A stretch of 64,000 nucleotides of DNA, from the NCBI GenBank assembly GCA_017303555.1, contig JAFLCN010000002.1, positions 124,001-188,000 on the forward strand. Direction: 5' to 3'. Source of the stretch: Planctomycetota bacterium (GTDB lineage Bacteria > Planctomycetota > Phycisphaerae > Phycisphaerales > UBA1924). Positions 52,484-59,655 of this stretch are shown here, one piece after another. Under the pieces are notes generated by a model. The model was not told where the DNA came from. It ran no database searches and was given only the letters and a program-made list of their open reading frames with translations. Both the position numbers and the translations under genes were made by a program. Each line of letters begins with the position of its first letter. The stretch's first letter is position 1.

Positions 52484-54814
52484 ATGTCGCAGTCAGCACT
52501 TCTCGAGGAAGCAGATCACGCTTCCTCTTCTCAATCCAAAGCCATGAAAATCAAGAACGCCCCGCGCGCCAATGCCGAGTCCATGGCGGCCAAGCAGCGC
52601 GATATTTCCGTTTCGGAGTTCTTCGCCAAGAACCGGCACCTGCTCGGGTTTGACAACCCGCGCAAGGCGCTTCTGACGACCGTGAAGGAAGCCGTGGATA
52701 ACTCGCTCGACGCGTGCGAGGAAGCGGGCATCCTGCCCGACATCACGGTCATCATCGAAGACTTGCAGCCGGATCGCCCCGCGAGCGCGAAGTCGGCTCG
52801 CTACCGCGTGAGCGTGGTCGACAACGGGCCCGGCATCGTCCGCAAGCAGGTCGAGAATATTTTCGGTCGCTTGCTGTATGGCTCGAAGTTCCACCGCCTC
52901 AAGATGAGCCGTGGCCAGCAGGGCATTGGTATCTCTGCCGCGGGAATGTACGGGCTGATCACCACGGGCAAGCCGATGGTGATCCACACCAAGCCCAACG
53001 CGAAACAGCCGGCTCACCACATCGAGCTGGCGATGAACACCAAGACCAATCGCGCCGAGGTGACCGAGGATCGCGAGACGAAGGATTTCCCCCCCGAGCG
53101 GTTCGGTCAGCTCACTTCGGGCACGCGAGAGCTGAGCGAACGGGGCGAGATCTTGTCGCCGGATGTCTATCCGACCGGCACGAGCGTCAGCATCGAGCTT
53201 GATGGTCGCTATCAAAAAGGCCGCGGCAGCGTCGATGAGTTTCTTGAACTCACGGCGATCGCAAATCCGCACGCTCGCTTCACGTTTGTTCCGCCAAGCA
53301 AGGTGAGCGAAGATGAAAAGGAAGATGCGCCGCTTCTCAAGCAGAAAGCCGCAAGCAAATTCAAGGTCGCGGGCGATGACGGAAAGATCGTCGAGACGAC
53401 GGCTGCGGTCGAGCCGCCACCAAAGCCGGTTGAGCCGCTGGTAACGACCGAAACCGGCGGCGTCGTGGTCTTCCCGCGCGCTGTGGAGGATCTGCCACCC
53501 GAAACGAAGGAAATTCAGCCCCATCCAAAGGGAATCGAGCTTGGCATTCTGCTTCAGATGCTGAAAGAAGCGGAGATCGAGAAGGGCGGCTACACGCTCT
53601 ACAACTTCCTGCAAGATCGCTTCAGCCGCGTGAGCGCTGCGACAGCGAGCACGCTCTGCGAGAAGATCGGGAAGACCTCGCGCACGCGCGTGGCCGACAT
53701 GGATCACGATTCGACGGAAAAGCTGTTTCGCGAACTACAGGATGCAAAATTGCCGCCGCCCCCGACGGATTGCCTTGCGCCCATCGGCGTGCAGCAATTG
53801 CTGAAGGGCATGTTCAAGGGTGTCCGCGCCGAGTTCTACGCCGCGAGCAGCCGCGAACCGGCGATTTATCGCGGTCGCCCATTCCTGATCGAGTCTGCGA
53901 TTGCGTTCGGTGGCGAGCTCCCCGGTGATGAGCCGTGCCGCGTGATCCGGTTTGCAAATCGCGTTCCGCTGCTCTTCCAGCAGAGCGCCTGTTCAAGCTT
54001 CAAAGCGGTTGTCGAAACCAACTGGCGCAACTACGACCTGCAGCAACCCCGCGGCGCGGTGCCGATCGGCGCGATCGTGATCATGATCCACATGGCCAGC
54101 GTGTGGGTGCCGTTCACGAGCGAGAGCAAAGAGGCGATCGCCGACTACGACGAAATCCGCAAGGAGATGAAGCTCGCGCTCATGGAGTGCGGCAGAAAAC
54201 TCGGTACCTATCTCAACAAGCGTCTCAAGATGCGTCGCGAGTCGGAGCGCCGCGATGTCTTCGAGCGCTACATCGGCGAGATCGCGAAGGCCTGCAACGC
54301 CATCAACGGCGCCGATGCGAAGAAGCTGTACGAGGCGATGCTGGCGCAGGCGAAGAAGCGCACCGCGATCGCTGATCTTCAATTGGACGAAGAAGGCAAG
54401 AAAGTCAAGGAAGAGGATCCGGCCGATCAAGATGGTGTGATCATCGTCGAGCAGGCGATGACGCAGACGACCACCAACAGCGACACTCCGCCTACGGGAA
54501 AGTCTTCGAGAGCGGAAAAGGCGATGCTCGAGGTGGCCGCTCGCGGCAGGCAGGCCGAAGAGGACGCCCAACCGAAGTTGCTTGAATCGCCCGGTCGCGG
54601 AGCGAAAGGCAAGCCCGCGAAGGACGATGGAAAGTCGGCGAAGAAGGCCGAGAAGTCCGCTGTTTCCAAGCCTCCCACGAAGAGCGGAACGGGATCAAAG
54701 CCCGCGGCCCAGGGCGAGACGAAGCCCGACCCGAAGCCCGACCCCAAGGCCAAACCCAAGATGCGCCTCGTAAACGGTAAACTGGTTCCGGCGGATCAAC
54801 CGGGACTGTTTTAG
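52484..54814 (+). CDS. top6B: DNA topoisomerase VI subunit B
   Basis: 776 aa, longer than archaeal subunit B (~530). Type IIB topoisomerase ATPase of the GHKL family: VKEAVDNSLDA at 67-77 (Glu general base and Asn), VVDNGPGI at 111-118, SRGQQGIGISAAGMYG at 142-157 (ATP lid), and PTGTSVSIEL; then the H2TH-like and transducer parts with FPRAVEDLPPETKEIQPHPKGIELG, DRFSRVS and FANRVPLLFQQSACSSFKAVV (switch-lysine region). A ~60-residue insert (about 260-320) splits the transducer entry, and after ~590 comes a long Lys/Pro/Ala-rich tail with no known domain. AAGGAGG ribosome site. Subunit A is encoded 3.3 kb downstream. Confidence 0.95.
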   Translation: MSQSALLEEADHASSSQSKAMKIKNAPRANAESMAAKQRDISVSEFFAKNRHLLGFDNPRKALLTTVKEAVDNSLDACEEAGILPDITVIIEDLQPDRPASAKSARYRVSVVDNGPGIVRKQVENIFGRLLYGSKFHRLKMSRGQQGIGISAAGMYGLITTGKPMVIHTKPNAKQPAHHIELAMNTKTNRAEVTEDRETKDFPPERFGQLTSGTRELSERGEILSPDVYPTGTSVSIELDGRYQKGRGSVDEFLELTAIANPHARFTFVPPSKVSEDEKEDAPLLKQKAASKFKVAGDDGKIVETTAAVEPPPKPVEPLVTTETGGVVVFPRAVEDLPPETKEIQPHPKGIELGILLQMLKEAEIEKGGYTLYNFLQDRFSRVSAATASTLCEKIGKTSRTRVADMDHDSTEKLFRELQDAKLPPPPTDCLAPIGVQQLLKGMFKGVRAEFYAASSREPAIYRGRPFLIESAIAFGGELPGDEPCRVIRFANRVPLLFQQSACSSFKAVVETNWRNYDLQQPRGAVPIGAIVIMIHMASVWVPFTSESKEAIADYDEIRKEMKLALMECGRKLGTYLNKRLKMRRESERRDVFERYIGEIAKACNAINGADAKKLYEAMLAQAKKRTAIADLQLDEEGKKVKEEDPADQDGVIIVEQAMTQTTTNSDTPPTGKSSRAEKAMLEVAARGRQAEEDAQPKLLESPGRGAKGKPAKDDGKSAKKAEKSAVSKPPTKSGTGSKPAAQGETKPDPKPDPKAKPKMRLVNGKLVPADQPGLF

Positions 54815-54844
54815 CCAAGCGGGGTGCGAGTGATTCAGGGCAGC

Positions 54845-56272
54845 ATGCGGAGCACGGTTCGAAGGAAGTCGCTTTGCGTTCTGCGCAGTGCAGCCATGCT
54901 TGCTGCGATCGGAGTCACGCAGGGTTGTCTTTCGCCCGATGTCGCGATGTCGCACAAGGTGCACGAGCGGCCTCATATCACCATGCGCGACCCTGACACC
55001 GGCCAGGTGCTTCAGGTGCTGACCAAGGTGCAGCTTCAGAATCGGCTGTTTGATCTGTGCGACCTGTGGGCGAGCGTGATCAAGAACCTGTACGACCCGA
55101 TGATCGATGAGGAAACCGATACGGAGATCCGCTCGTCCCTGATCGAGCAGAAGCTGCGGTCCATCGTTTCGGGCTACACGATCGGCGTGACGTCGGATCC
55201 GGTGAGCGGGATGCTTGACATGATGGTTCTTTCCAGGCTTTCGGCACGGATGTGGGAGCCCGGGCCGCGCGTCACCGACTGGTTTGGCGACATGGCGCCG
55301 CGGGTTTCCGCAGGGCTCGCGGCGGCGGATGCAAAGATCTGGAAGATCGGCAGCCAGATGCTCAGCCCGAACGAGCGGAAGCAACTCGAAGAACGCATCG
55401 AGCGCTGGATAAGCGATTCGCCGGATCTCAAATCTGTGTCATTCGCGCGTTTGAGTGATATCGACTCGGGGTTCGATGCGAAGCTGGAAGCCGAAGTCGC
55501 GAAGTCTCAGGGGCTGATGGATGTGCTCGACGAGGCGATGCGTTCGGCGGAAGAATTTCGGCTGCTCGGTGAGCGCTCGCTGTGGATCGCTTCGCGAGCG
55601 CCCATTCTGCTGCGCATGACCACCGAAGCGAGCATCGTCTCGGCCTTCGACATCCCGCAGGTTCAAGAGGCATTGAAATCGACCCACGCACTTCCAGTCG
55701 CCGTCGATCATCTTGCCGATCGAGTTCATGAGATTGCTTCGACCGTCGATACCCAGCGCCGAGAGATCTTTGCATCGATCGAATCCGCTCAGGGCGCGGT
55801 TCAGCCGATGCTGAAGCAGGTTACCGAGGCGATCAATCGCGCCGATGAGGTCGTGAAGGAAGCACGCAAACTCGCTTCGGAGCGCAGCCAGGCGGCGGAT
55901 GTCGCGGCAGGTGCTGCCAAGGACCTTCGCGAAGCGTTGGCCACGCTCAACGGCATGGCGCAGCGGTACTTTCCGCCGGATGCGTCGGGGGCGCCGAGCG
56001 GGCTTTCGCACACAACGACCGACCTTGCGCTTGCCGCGGAGCGGTTCAATTCTGCGGTCACCACGTTGCAGTCGCTCGCCAAGCCCGGAGACTCGACCAA
56101 TGCAGTCGCCGAACTATCCAACCTCGCCGACGCAAAGGTTGCGGTGATCGCGGCTAGCGGCGACGCAGCGATTGATCGAGCGTTCTGGCGTGGTCTTATC
56201 TTGATTGCCGTCGCGTTTGTACTGGCGGTCGTCTACCGAGTCATTTCGCCACGGCTCGCGCCGCGTTCCTGA
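54845..56272 (+). CDS. Hypothetical lipoprotein with long helical region and C-terminal membrane segment
   Basis: 475 aa (starts at GTG 54824 or 54830 are also possible). A hydrophobic segment ends in VTQGCLS, a lipobox-like cysteine site. Most of the rest is helical and charged, with coiled-coil-type sequence from about 285 to 370 (VDTQRREIFASIESAQGAV, VVKEARKLASERSQAADVA). A membrane helix is at the end (GLILIAVAFVLAVVYRVI), so both ends may be membrane-bound, as in some methyl-accepting-like or spacer proteins. No family recognised. Lies 30 bp after top6B on the same strand. Confidence 0.65.
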   Translation: MRSTVRRKSLCVLRSAAMLAAIGVTQGCLSPDVAMSHKVHERPHITMRDPDTGQVLQVLTKVQLQNRLFDLCDLWASVIKNLYDPMIDEETDTEIRSSLIEQKLRSIVSGYTIGVTSDPVSGMLDMMVLSRLSARMWEPGPRVTDWFGDMAPRVSAGLAAADAKIWKIGSQMLSPNERKQLEERIERWISDSPDLKSVSFARLSDIDSGFDAKLEAEVAKSQGLMDVLDEAMRSAEEFRLLGERSLWIASRAPILLRMTTEASIVSAFDIPQVQEALKSTHALPVAVDHLADRVHEIASTVDTQRREIFASIESAQGAVQPMLKQVTEAINRADEVVKEARKLASERSQAADVAAGAAKDLREALATLNGMAQRYFPPDASGAPSGLSHTTTDLALAAERFNSAVTTLQSLAKPGDSTNAVAELSNLADAKVAVIAASGDAAIDRAFWRGLILIAVAFVLAVVYRVISPRLAPRS

Positions 56273-56291
56273 AAGCTGGATACTTGCTGCG

Positions 56292-57185
56292 ATGGTTGCC
56301 GTCTTGGGTCATCTTGGCGTCTGGGCCGGCCTGTATGCGCTCGCGGCATTCATTTGTTTCAGTCAGCTTGCGGGATTGCCCGCGGACGCGCCGCTTCCGC
56401 GTTGGGAGGCGATGCTCTGCGTTTTCCTGACGGCAACCGGCGTGTACTCGCTCGATCGCGTCAAACTGATATCGCGATGGCTCGATCCGGCGGATGTGCA
56501 GGCGCAGCCCGAGCGATACCAGTTTCTGATGCCTCGATCGGTGCGTGTACGCGTCATGGCGGCCGTGGTTCTCGTGGCGGCAGCTTTGGTCGGATATACA
56601 TTTCACCCGCTCGCTGCGGCTCTCATTGCACTGTCTGCTTTGGGAACGGTGATCTACGCGCCCATGCCGCGGCGGAGGACTGCACGCATCAAGGATCGCC
56701 TGTGGCTCAAAAATCTGTATGTCGCGCTCGGGATGACCCTGTTCTGTGCTCTGATCGCCCTGCTGGCGCGCCCGGAAGCCTCGGTCCGCAGCTTGCCGGG
56801 TTTCGTTTTGAACTCATGGGCCGTCCTCGTCCTTTCATTCACGACTGTCGGATTCCGCATTCTCTTGGATGCCGCCCTTTGCGATATTGATGACGAACCC
56901 ACCGATCTTCGGTTTGGCACCGACACATTTGCAACTCGATTGGGAGGCAAACCGGTCTGGAACTGGGCGGGATTCGGACGGCTGGCAATCGCTGCGGGGC
57001 TTGTCGTCGCACGTCCGCTGCCAGTCACCGCCCGCATCGGATGGGCGGCCGCAATGGTGCTCGGGATGATCGCTCTTCGCTGGCGACATCCGGTGCGAAT
57101 CCGCGATACTGTCGATCTCCGGTTCCTTCCGGAAGCCTGCTTTGTCGCCATCGTTCTTTGGATCAGTCAGCCCGCCCATTCCTAG
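56292..57185 (+). CDS. UbiA-superfamily prenyltransferase-like membrane protein
   Basis: 297 aa with about eight membrane helices. A UbiA-like first acidic motif occurs as TGVYSLDRVKLISRWLDP, and a second as LLDAALCDIDDEPTDLRFGTDTFATRLGG, the latter close to the family's DxxDxxxDxxxGxxTLPxxxG pattern. UbiA enzymes attach isoprenoid chains to aromatic acceptors such as quinone precursors or haem. The first motif is weakened (no NDxxDxxxD), so the acceptor or even activity is uncertain. An upstream frame overlaps the lipoprotein gene; the ATG at 56292 is used. A UbiD-family gene is elsewhere in the window. Confidence 0.75.
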   Translation: MVAVLGHLGVWAGLYALAAFICFSQLAGLPADAPLPRWEAMLCVFLTATGVYSLDRVKLISRWLDPADVQAQPERYQFLMPRSVRVRVMAAVVLVAAALVGYTFHPLAAALIALSALGTVIYAPMPRRRTARIKDRLWLKNLYVALGMTLFCALIALLARPEASVRSLPGFVLNSWAVLVLSFTTVGFRILLDAALCDIDDEPTDLRFGTDTFATRLGGKPVWNWAGFGRLAIAAGLVVARPLPVTARIGWAAAMVLGMIALRWRHPVRIRDTVDLRFLPEACFVAIVLWISQPAHS

Positions 57186-57206
57186 CACTCGCAGAGAGGA
57201 AATCCG

Positions 57207-58013
57207 ATGCGAAATCTCCTGATGTGCCTTCTGACATTTGCATTATCGAATCTTGCGACCGCCGCCGTTCAGACGAAAGTCATCGAGTACAAGGACGGGG
57301 ACACCGTGCTTGAAGGGTTCCTCGCTTGGGATGATGCAATCGCGACCGAGCGGACGCCCGGCGCAGCCGTTCTAGTGATTCCCGAGTGGTGGGGGAACAA
57401 CGACTACTCGCGTGGCCGCGCCAAGCAACTCGCAGAACTCGGCTACGTTGCCTTCGCGATTGACATGTACGGGAAGGGAAAGGTCACGGCTGATCCGAAG
57501 CAGGCGGGCGAGTGGTCGGGTGCGATCATGAAAGATGTTGCTGCCCGCCGCGCTCGCGCCAGCGCGGGGCTGAACGTTCTCAAGAGCCAGAAAATTGTGG
57601 ACGGCGCCCGGATCGGTGTCATTGGCTACTGCATGGGCGGCACGCTCGCGATCGACCTCGCCCGGACGGGTGCGGACTTGAAGGCCGCTGTCGCGTTCCA
57701 CGCGTCGACCTTTGCCGCGGCAAGCCCCGAAGAGAACAAGCAGATCAAGGGCACGCTTCTCATCTGCCACGGTGCGGAAGACGCCTTTGTCCCCGCGGGC
57801 GAAGTCGATAGATTCCAGGCGCAGATGAAAGAGGCCGGCACCGACTTTGTGTTGATCTCGTACAGCGGGGCGGTTCACTCGTTTACAAACTCCGGCGTGG
57901 ACAAAATGGGCGTTCCGGGGGCAAAGTACAACTCCAACGCCGACAGGCGTTCCTGGGCGGAGATGCAGGAAATCTTCCGCGAGAAGCTTGGAAACACCAA
58001 AGCCAGCGGCTGA
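57207..58013 (+). CDS. Secreted dienelactone hydrolase-family protein
   Basis: 268 aa. Signal peptide MRNLLMCLLTFALSNLATAA. Alpha/beta hydrolase with the DLH triad Cys-Asp-His: GVIGYCMGGTLAIDLAR (Cys nucleophile), CHGAEDAFVPAGE (Asp) and SGAVHSFTN (His). PEWWGNNDYSRGRAKQLAELGYVAFAIDMYG is the typical N-terminal core. It hydrolyses lactones or esters, probably outside the cytoplasm. GAGAGGAAAT ribosome site. 21 bp after the UbiA-like gene and 77 bp before top6A. Confidence 0.9.
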   Translation: MRNLLMCLLTFALSNLATAAVQTKVIEYKDGDTVLEGFLAWDDAIATERTPGAAVLVIPEWWGNNDYSRGRAKQLAELGYVAFAIDMYGKGKVTADPKQAGEWSGAIMKDVAARRARASAGLNVLKSQKIVDGARIGVIGYCMGGTLAIDLARTGADLKAAVAFHASTFAAASPEENKQIKGTLLICHGAEDAFVPAGEVDRFQAQMKEAGTDFVLISYSGAVHSFTNSGVDKMGVPGAKYNSNADRRSWAEMQEIFREKLGNTKASG

Positions 58014-58090
58014 ACCGCTGGTGAGTTTCTAGAATTGCAGATTCGCGCCGGCGTTTGTTCCGTTCGCTCCATGTTTTCAAGGATGATTCC

Positions 58091-59221
58091 ATGGCCAAGT
58101 CCAAGCCGAGTGTTTCGCAGAAGACCAAAGAGCGCGACAAACGCACGCTCGAGAAGATCGTCGCCCTTGCGGACGATCTCTCCAAGAAGACCTTCGCGGG
58201 CAAAGAGCCCACTTTTCATATCCCGACCCGGTCGAAATCCAACACGATCTGGAACAAGAAACGTGGCATCCTCGAAATGGGCGACGGCAAGGCCGACCGT
58301 CCGCTCTTCGACCTAAAAACCGCCAAGCAGTTCATGCAGACCGTTTTGCACGGCAGCACGATCAAGGATCTGATCGAGGCCGGAAAGACTTCGAGCCTGC
58401 GAGGCGTGTTCTACAAGGCAAAGCACACCGTCGCCGGCACCAAAGAAAACACGTTCGACACGCAGGAAGAATCCGACCCGATTCTCGAAGACCTCGAGGT
58501 CACGCTGGGCGCGCTGCGTGAAGAGTTACATGTGTTTGCCGAGAATCGCGGCGTGATCGCCGGCAACATCACTGTCGTTGACGGTGGCGACACGATTGAT
58601 TGCCGGGCCGCTGGCCGAGGCGGCCACGGAATCCCCTCCATTGTCGAGCCCGACGTCTTCGAGTTCGGCAAGTGCGAGGCCAAGTTCGTGCTGCATGTCG
58701 AAAAAGGCACGGTCTGGAATCGGTTCAACGAAGATCGATTCTGGGAGAAAAACAACTGCATTTTGACGCACGGTGCAGGACAGCCGCCGCGCGGCTGCCG
58801 CCGGTTGCTGCAGAGGCTGAATCAGGAGCTCAAGCTCCCGATCATCTGCGTTCTCGATTGCGATCCGTGGGGCCACTACATCTACAGCGTGATCAAGCAG
58901 GGATCGATCTCTCTCGCGTTCGAGAGCTCGCGCCTTGCTATTCCCGATGCGAAGTTCCTGGGCCTCCGCGCCAAGGACTACGAAGAGTGCAATCTTGGCG
59001 ATGCGGTCAAGATTGATCTCACCGAGAACGACATCAAGCGCGCCAAGGAAATCGCGGCGTACCCGTGGTTCGAAAACCACAAAGGCTGGCAAAAGGAGAT
59101 TCAAAAGCTCCTTTCCAACGGCTTCAAGATGGAAGTCGAAGCCATGATCAACAAGGGCATCAGCTTCGTGACCGAGGAATACGTGCCCGCGCGTTTGAAG
59201 GCGAAAGACTGGCTCGACTAG
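58091..59221 (+). CDS. top6A: DNA topoisomerase VI subunit A (Spo11/Top6A family)
   Basis: 376 aa, the normal length. The DNA-cleaving subunit that forms a 5' phosphotyrosyl bond and moves one duplex through another. The winged-helix (5Y-CAP) active site is SSLRGVFYKAKHT with candidate tyrosine Y108 (FY instead of the usual YY). The Toprim domain shows E204 (FVLHVEKGTVWN) and the DxD pair D256/D258 (ICVLDCDPWGHYIYSVIKQG). FLGLRAKDYEECNLGD follows as in archaeal enzymes. ATG at 58091 with AAGGA nine bases upstream. A zinc-ribbon gene follows 14 bp later. Confidence 0.96.
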   Translation: MAKSKPSVSQKTKERDKRTLEKIVALADDLSKKTFAGKEPTFHIPTRSKSNTIWNKKRGILEMGDGKADRPLFDLKTAKQFMQTVLHGSTIKDLIEAGKTSSLRGVFYKAKHTVAGTKENTFDTQEESDPILEDLEVTLGALREELHVFAENRGVIAGNITVVDGGDTIDCRAAGRGGHGIPSIVEPDVFEFGKCEAKFVLHVEKGTVWNRFNEDRFWEKNNCILTHGAGQPPRGCRRLLQRLNQELKLPIICVLDCDPWGHYIYSVIKQGSISLAFESSRLAIPDAKFLGLRAKDYEECNLGDAVKIDLTENDIKRAKEIAAYPWFENHKGWQKEIQKLLSNGFKMEVEAMINKGISFVTEEYVPARLKAKDWLD

Positions 59222-59235
59222 TTCTGGAGTAGCAC

Positions 59236-59655
59236 ATGCACACCACCCCTCCCGGAAAGATCCGCTGCCCGAAAGACGCGACCATCATGGAGAAGCTCTC
59301 CATCGGCGGCAGCGATCTCGTGGTGGACCACTGCGGCCGCTGCGGCGCGATCTGGTTCGATGCATACGAACTGGAACGCGCCATCAAGGCGAAAGAGCAG
59401 GGCGCAGACCTCGACGATGTTGACTATGGCACCGCCAAGTCCAACTACGAATACAAGGTGCTGCGCGATGACTTCCTTGAGTGCCCGCGTGATCACACCA
59501 AGCTGCTCCAGGTCCCCGATCCGCGTCAGCCACACGTGATCATCGATCTCTGCCGCGATTGTGGCGGCGTGCTGCTCGATGCCGGTGAACTCAAGGATCT
59601 CAGCGAGTTCACGCTCGGCGAACGCGTCCGCAGTATTTTCCGAAGCAAGAAGTAA
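59236..59655 (+). CDS. Double zinc-ribbon (TFIIB-type) protein
   Basis: 139 aa with two similar halves. Each has a CP-x-D/H start and a CxxCG ribbon: IRCPKDATIMEKL ... VDHCGRCGAIWFDAYELERA and FLECPRDHTKLLQV ... IDLCRDCGGVLLDAGELKDL. This is the zf-TFIIB family, soluble proteins whose roles in bacteria are not established; zinc binding and possible nucleic acid or protein contact are inferred. It lies 14 bp after top6A, so it is likely co-transcribed with it. Confidence 0.85.
   Translation: MHTTPPGKIRCPKDATIMEKLSIGGSDLVVDHCGRCGAIWFDAYELERAIKAKEQGADLDDVDYGTAKSNYEYKVLRDDFLECPRDHTKLLQVPDPRQPHVIIDLCRDCGGVLLDAGELKDLSEFTLGERVRSIFRSKK

Follow-up and report, generated by a model that had tools for sequence, protein, structure and literature searches.

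The closest described relatives of the system studied here are the topoisomerase VI (Topo VI) enzymes of Methanosarcina mazei and Saccharolobus shibatae (PDB 2Q2E, 9O0G, and 2ZBK). The M. mazei enzyme acts preferentially in decatenation (PMC8837201), and its complementation of a temperature-sensitive E. coli parE mutant is mentioned, as unpublished, in the main text of a 2024 survey by Allen and Maxwell (PMC11302465). The same text calls the function of bacterial Topo VI open and reports Topo VI without topoisomerase IV (Topo IV) in gyrase-positive planctomycetes (Anaerohalosphaera, Sedimentisphaera, Pirellula, Lacipirellula, and Thermogutta), the phylum of the genome examined here. We analyzed a 64,000-nucleotide stretch (hereafter the window; contig JAFLCN010000002.1, positions 124,001 to 188,000) of a planctomycete genome, assembly GCA_017303555.1, which carries genes for both Topo VI subunits, Top6B and Top6A. 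On sequence and predicted structure, the locus probably encodes a working Topo VI that acts as a decatenase and is possibly tethered to the beta sliding clamp. Topo VI without Topo IV is not new here, because it has already been reported for planctomycetes. What is added to the known picture is a class-level pattern of replacement and a motif in the Top6B tail; the survey sampled one species per family, and we found in its main text no description of replacement within an order, of two Topo VI lineages in one class, or of the tail motif.

A sequence-only reading of the window had proposed a complete Topo VI, and both open reading frames (ORFs), their positions, and their strand were confirmed. 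Top6B matches Topo-VIb_trans (PF09239; 5e-55), HATPase_c, and NCBIfam PRK04184 (6.6e-179), and Top6A matches TOP6A-Spo11_Toprim (1.4e-58), TP6A_N (3.5e-16), and NCBIfam PRK04342 (3.6e-153, above its cut-off). In profile searches neither protein matched the type IIA A-subunit family (PF00521). By sequence, the closest solved chains for both subunits are those of M. mazei and S. shibatae Topo VI, with which subunit architecture, catalytic residues, and fold are shared at about 27-38% identity in structural alignments. Structure modeling, named beforehand as a way to refute the assignment, agreed with it. The predicted Top6B, including its H2TH region and overall fold, matches 9o0g_B over 584 aligned columns (E 3e-47) and reaches a TMt of 0.87-0.88 with 2hkj and 1z59. 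The predicted Top6A matches solved Topo VI A subunits (E 4e-27) with a poor overall root-mean-square deviation (about 15-23 Å). This model drew on 14 sequences, and the way its domains are placed may explain the deviation.

The claim that both subunits keep their key residues also held for every catalytic motif tested. The GHKL motifs of Top6B are near-invariant in both Topo VI types of the class (see below), and the transducer lysine K549, in ESKEAIA, is conserved in relatives and aligns with K427 of S. shibatae, the switch lysine. In the winged-helix domain of Top6A, RGVFY aligns with LRELYY/IRDLYY and its tyrosine is invariant among relatives; the Toprim glutamate and DxD are present and near-invariant. 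The residue numbers given earlier (Y108, E204, D256, and D258) are right when counted from the ATG at 58091, and 12 must be added from the listed TTG at 58055. Judged by these features, the two proteins are a genuine, catalytically complete type IIB topoisomerase (Topo VI, A2B2). In Topo VIII the A and B parts are fused. Here both genes are separate and full-length, lie on a 354-kb contig, and are kept across the family, and so an identity as a plasmid- or mobile-element-borne Topo VIII was rejected. Compared with the M. mazei and S. shibatae enzymes, the window enzyme sits in a bacterial host and has WRNY for WKxY and KGRG for KGRR. These altered loops were dismissed as a special feature, since both Topo VI types of the phylum commonly show them.

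Two Topo VI lineages occur in the class, type 1 (to which the window's enzyme belongs) and type 2, about 35% identical to each other in the A subunit. In a tree that included two archaeal references, each type came out as a single group; type 1 fell toward S. shibatae and type 2 toward M. mazei, a placement that is tentative because the branches are long. The closest PDB match of type 2 is M. jannaschii (395 bits). Allen and Maxwell inferred at least two transfers from archaea (PMC11302465), with which the presence of two lineages in the class agrees. In one member of the host's own family (G016, locus L070), Top6A groups with those of family f5 and shares just 55% identity with the window Top6A, suggesting that Topo VI was transferred or replaced inside the order.

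One part of the enzyme is unusual, and it was absent from the sequence-only reading: the Top6B tail has a conserved LF motif at its end. M. mazei Top6B has an immunoglobulin (Ig)-like C-terminal domain, whereas the window Top6B has instead a long tail that ends in ADQPGLF. Type-1 Top6B proteins generally extend far past the transducer, mostly at low model confidence, whereas type 2 ends ~31 residues after the same point. We rejected a gyrase-driven C-terminal domain as in archaea, the window tail being mostly low-confidence and not Ig-like; nor does the presence of gyrase explain the tail, because tail-bearing type-1 hosts and tail-less type-2 hosts both have gyrase. In a class sample of 150 evenly spread genomes, the type-1 tails are hardly alignable, and 69 of 74 contain the dipeptide LF. 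Adding named and phylum loci to this sample gave 94 dereplicated tails, 87 of them with LF, against a mean of 6.7 and a maximum of 17 in 5000 trials of per-tail shuffling. No tail dipeptide is more over-represented than LF; a VI/IV patch, which reads GVIIVE in the window, comes next. In the positions before LF, glutamine is enriched at -3 (13 versus 2.3 expected, p 6e-7, a rough value like the other tail p-values because dereplication only partly removes relatedness), together with D at -4/-5, P/G at -2, and S/G/T at -1. The dipeptide was found in none of 62 type-2 Top6B tails, no ORF among ~970 long ORFs of the same neighborhoods ends in LF, truncated Top6B aside, and no LF motif was seen in ParC, ParE, or gyrase C-termini.

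The GVIIVE patch is a second conserved feature of the type-1 tail, with VI/IV dipeptides in more than half of the tails.

In bacteria, the sliding-clamp motif reads QL(S/D)LF but varies widely (PMC9690074). MutS of the same genomes has Q-x-x-L-F in 15 of 16 cases (QLGLF in the host; the sixteenth, from G037, was read in a doubtful frame), and the replicative DnaE has Q-x-x-[LM]-F in most genomes in which the region was covered (GQGALFG in the congener G002), with a few lacking a match; the locus read for the host's own DnaE did not yield the motif. The window's QPGLF follows this pattern. Because of its likeness to the cognate MutS and DnaE motifs, a clamp tether is a reasonable inference, not a finding. 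We suggest tentatively, at a little short of an even chance, that type-1 Topo VI, in Phycisphaerae and some metagenome-assembled genomes (MAGs) named Pirellulales, is a sliding-clamp client whose tail peptide recruits the decatenase to newly replicated DNA. In the window, with chances about evenly balanced, the flexible tail end would dock on the beta clamp and hold the enzyme behind the replication fork. No topoisomerase appears in the table of bacterial clamp partners in PMC9690074, and the literature searched gave no account of a motif like this linking a bacterial topoisomerase to the clamp. In Pyrococcus, Topo VI subunits were recovered by co-purification with NucS, a PCNA-linked nuclease (PMC4929162), and Topo II-alpha is a PCNA partner in eukaryotes (PMC9690074).

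Several observations weigh against the clamp step. Although Top6B shares a short Q-x-x-L-F-like peptide with the clamp clients MutS and DnaE, these almost always keep the glutamine, whereas it is usually missing from Top6B (13 of 87 tails have it, and G, D, or E frequently stands there instead). LF is missing from seven of the 94 tails, and a tail of this kind is absent from the type-2 Topo VI of the class. The LF motif may have another partner. The tip of SSB is an acidic-hydrophobic extreme C-terminus, and the LF motif might bind through a similar tip, or bind a chromosome-segregation protein; we give such other partners somewhat less than an even chance. The acidic residues before LF and the minority share of glutamine favor them, as does the position of LF at the extreme C-terminus in 25 of the 87 tails, like the SSB tip. 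However, LF is internal in many others, so a free C-terminus is not needed. Glutamine at -3 is also the most significant enrichment, S/G/T at -1 fits QL(S/D)LF (PMC9690074), and the cognate MutS and DnaE share the form of the motif. If type-1 Topo VI is a clamp client, an archaeal-type enzyme has been wired into the bacterial replisome by gaining a docking peptide of bacterial kind, and the clamp is directly linked to a bacterial type II topoisomerase. Binding of the tail motif to the clamp would show how a horizontally acquired archaeal enzyme is fitted into that replisome. The tether is the part worth testing first.

In the proposed decatenation, ATP-driven dimerization of B would clamp the transported duplex, and A would make a double-strand break with a 2-nt stagger, allowing linked sister chromosomes to pass through each other. 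Topo VI would most likely carry out the decatenation done elsewhere by Topo IV (ParC/ParE), which presumably has the same job of catenane removal but is a type IIA enzyme with a different A-subunit architecture; gyrase would maintain negative supercoiling. We favor Topo VI as the remover of sister-chromosome links because the M. mazei enzyme decatenates and because of the host's topoisomerase set and the pattern of replacement among its relatives. The host is a Phycisphaerales MAG of 4.06 Mb in 42 contigs, 94.5% complete; against GTDB contigs, its Top6A has a 99% match in Phycisphaerales bacterium isolate new MAG-60. The genome search proposed in the sequence-only reading, run as profile searches of the contigs, found gyrase as one GyrA (PF00521) and one GyrB (PF00204) locus, the former with a GyrA-box-like QSRGGKG, and one type IA topoisomerase locus. 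A second homolog of GyrA/ParC or of GyrB/ParE was not detected in this 94.5% complete genome. Topo III was rejected as an alternative decatenase, the host having a single type IA locus.

Topo VI had been called sporadic in bacteria, which does not describe this lineage: Top6A is present in 54 of the 61 nearest relatives of the host, and in the class sample 92 genomes have Top6A, 92 have Top6B, and 93 have Topo VI overall. A full second type-IIA A subunit occurs in none of these 93 (two have split fragments) and in 16 of the 57 genomes without Topo VI (Fisher 4e-8, uncorrected for kinship). In the order-level family f6, all seven genomes lack Topo VI and have two PF00521 and two PF00204 loci. 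The extra A subunits of Topo IV lineages have no GyrA box, and in four checked regions a ParE-size gene of 642-659 amino acids (aa) lies near the extra A subunit. The GyrA tree nests the Topo IV lineages (f6, parts of f11, and G080) within those that have Topo VI, and its supported branches force at least three changes. From this nesting, Topo VI and Topo IV appear to have replaced each other repeatedly in the class.

The exclusion is a strong association and not an absolute one. Phylum-wide, the association is strongly negative (odds ratio 0.14, 5.5e-11, 246 genomes, uncorrected for kinship), with 16 of 114 Topo VI genomes also having a second type-IIA A subunit. This overlap counts against the decatenase role, as do three further points. 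First, 41 of the 150 class genomes have one gyrase A subunit and neither Topo VI nor a second type-IIA enzyme, and therefore gyrase alone can suffice. Second, genome G064 retains only the last 37 codons of a type-2 top6A (L399:2749-2859), in flanks collinear with the intact locus of its congener G074 (L400); Top6B is gone and gyrase is the sole type II enzyme detected. By this collinearity, the remnant is evidently the scar of a recent top6A deletion without gain of Topo IV. Third, the absence of Topo IV from the host is read from an incomplete MAG. These genomes with gyrase alone, the loss in G064, and the phylum-wide co-occurrence would all suit an active accessory enzyme, redundant with gyrase and serving special needs such as repair or conflicts instead of being the main decatenase. 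We consider that reading unlikely, because retention is near-universal in the host family and in most of the order and exclusion with a second type-IIA enzyme is complete in the class, which together argue for a core job shared with that enzyme. The class offers natural experiments: close lineages differ in having Topo VI, Topo IV, or gyrase alone, and so the decatenase role is testable.

Three genomes show other irregularities. G056 has a second, partial copy of the Top6A C-terminus (L401:1219-1452) ~1.2 kb from the intact gene. G132 has six PF00521 and four PF00204 loci in 3.4 Mb, from a mixed bin or extra mobile copies. In G103, Topo VI is missing and there is no second type-IIA enzyme, while the three other sampled members of its genus have Topo VI; this is either a loss or an assembly gap.

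Three genes separate top6B from top6A (Table 1). The sequence-only reading had described them as a lipoprotein, a UbiA-like protein, and a secreted hydrolase, on the same strand at spacings of 20-80 bp. The shared strand and the hydrolase were borne out; the first gene has a lipobox-like N-terminus without a Pfam match, and the likeness of the second to UbiA found no Pfam support. The successive gaps are 9, -68, 21, and 41 bp (77 bp to the ATG), near the range given. Promoter/terminator and RNA-family scans of the Topo VI locus returned nothing above chance. We compared 40 loci. In 35 class genomes, A follows B within 8 kb on the same strand, usually after a short gap; just one of these genomes has a wider separation than the host. 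Beyond the host, the three genes lie between B and A only in three congeners (L063-L065); they are absent from this interval in the congeners L062 and L066 and in other families. They look like late insertions, and the separation is a local trait and not a conserved operon feature. A functional operon with Topo VI, in keeping with the common strand and small gaps, is highly improbable and was rejected, since B-A adjacency recurs elsewhere and the three genes do not.

That the genes are inactive, or make meiosis-like double-strand breaks as Spo11/Top6BL do, is scarcely credible: Top6A and Spo11 are homologous and Spo11 is among the fold-search matches, but Topo VI matches stand far above it (E about 1e-27 versus 1e-10), Top6B has full GHKL, H2TH, and transducer regions, and every catalytic residue is retained.

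Table 1. Features of the Topo VI locus, in window coordinates
Feature	Position	Strand	Remarks
Top6B, 776 aa: GHKL ATPase, H2TH region, transducer, and long C-terminal tail	52484..54814	+	ORF, family and structure matches
GHKL ATPase motifs of Top6B: KEAVDNSLDA (aa 68-77), DNGPGI (aa 113-118), GQQGIGISAAGM (aa 144-155)	52685..52948	+	
ESKEAIA with K549, Top6B transducer, aa 547-553	54122..54142	+	Aligned to S. shibatae K427; conserved
GVIIVE patch, Top6B tail, aa 651-656	54434..54451	+	VI/IV/II dipeptides over-represented in tails
Top6B tail segment, aa 663-771	54470..54796	+	Weakly conserved; mostly low pLDDT (predicted local distance difference test score; 694-755 <50)
QPGLF, Top6B C-terminal end, aa 772-776	54797..54811	+	Type-1 Top6B xxxLF motif, clamp-binding-like
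Inserted gene 1: putative lipoprotein, 482 aa	54824..56272	+	Lipobox-like N-terminus; no family match
Inserted gene 2: 326-aa protein	56205..57185	+	No family match
Inserted gene 3: dienelactone-hydrolase-family protein	57207..58013	+	Pfam DLH 4.7e-48
Top6A, 388 aa from TTG; 376 aa from likelier ATG at 58091	58055..59221	+	
RGVFY, Top6A	58400..58414	+	Aligns with the A-subunit catalytic tyrosine motif of Topo VI (2zbk_A, 2q2e_A); Tyr invariant
Top6A Toprim acidic residues: E in VEKGTV, D-x-D in DCDPWG	58697..58873	+	
Gene with TFIIB-type zinc ribbons, downstream of Top6A	59236..59655	+	Adjoins Top6A in congeners only

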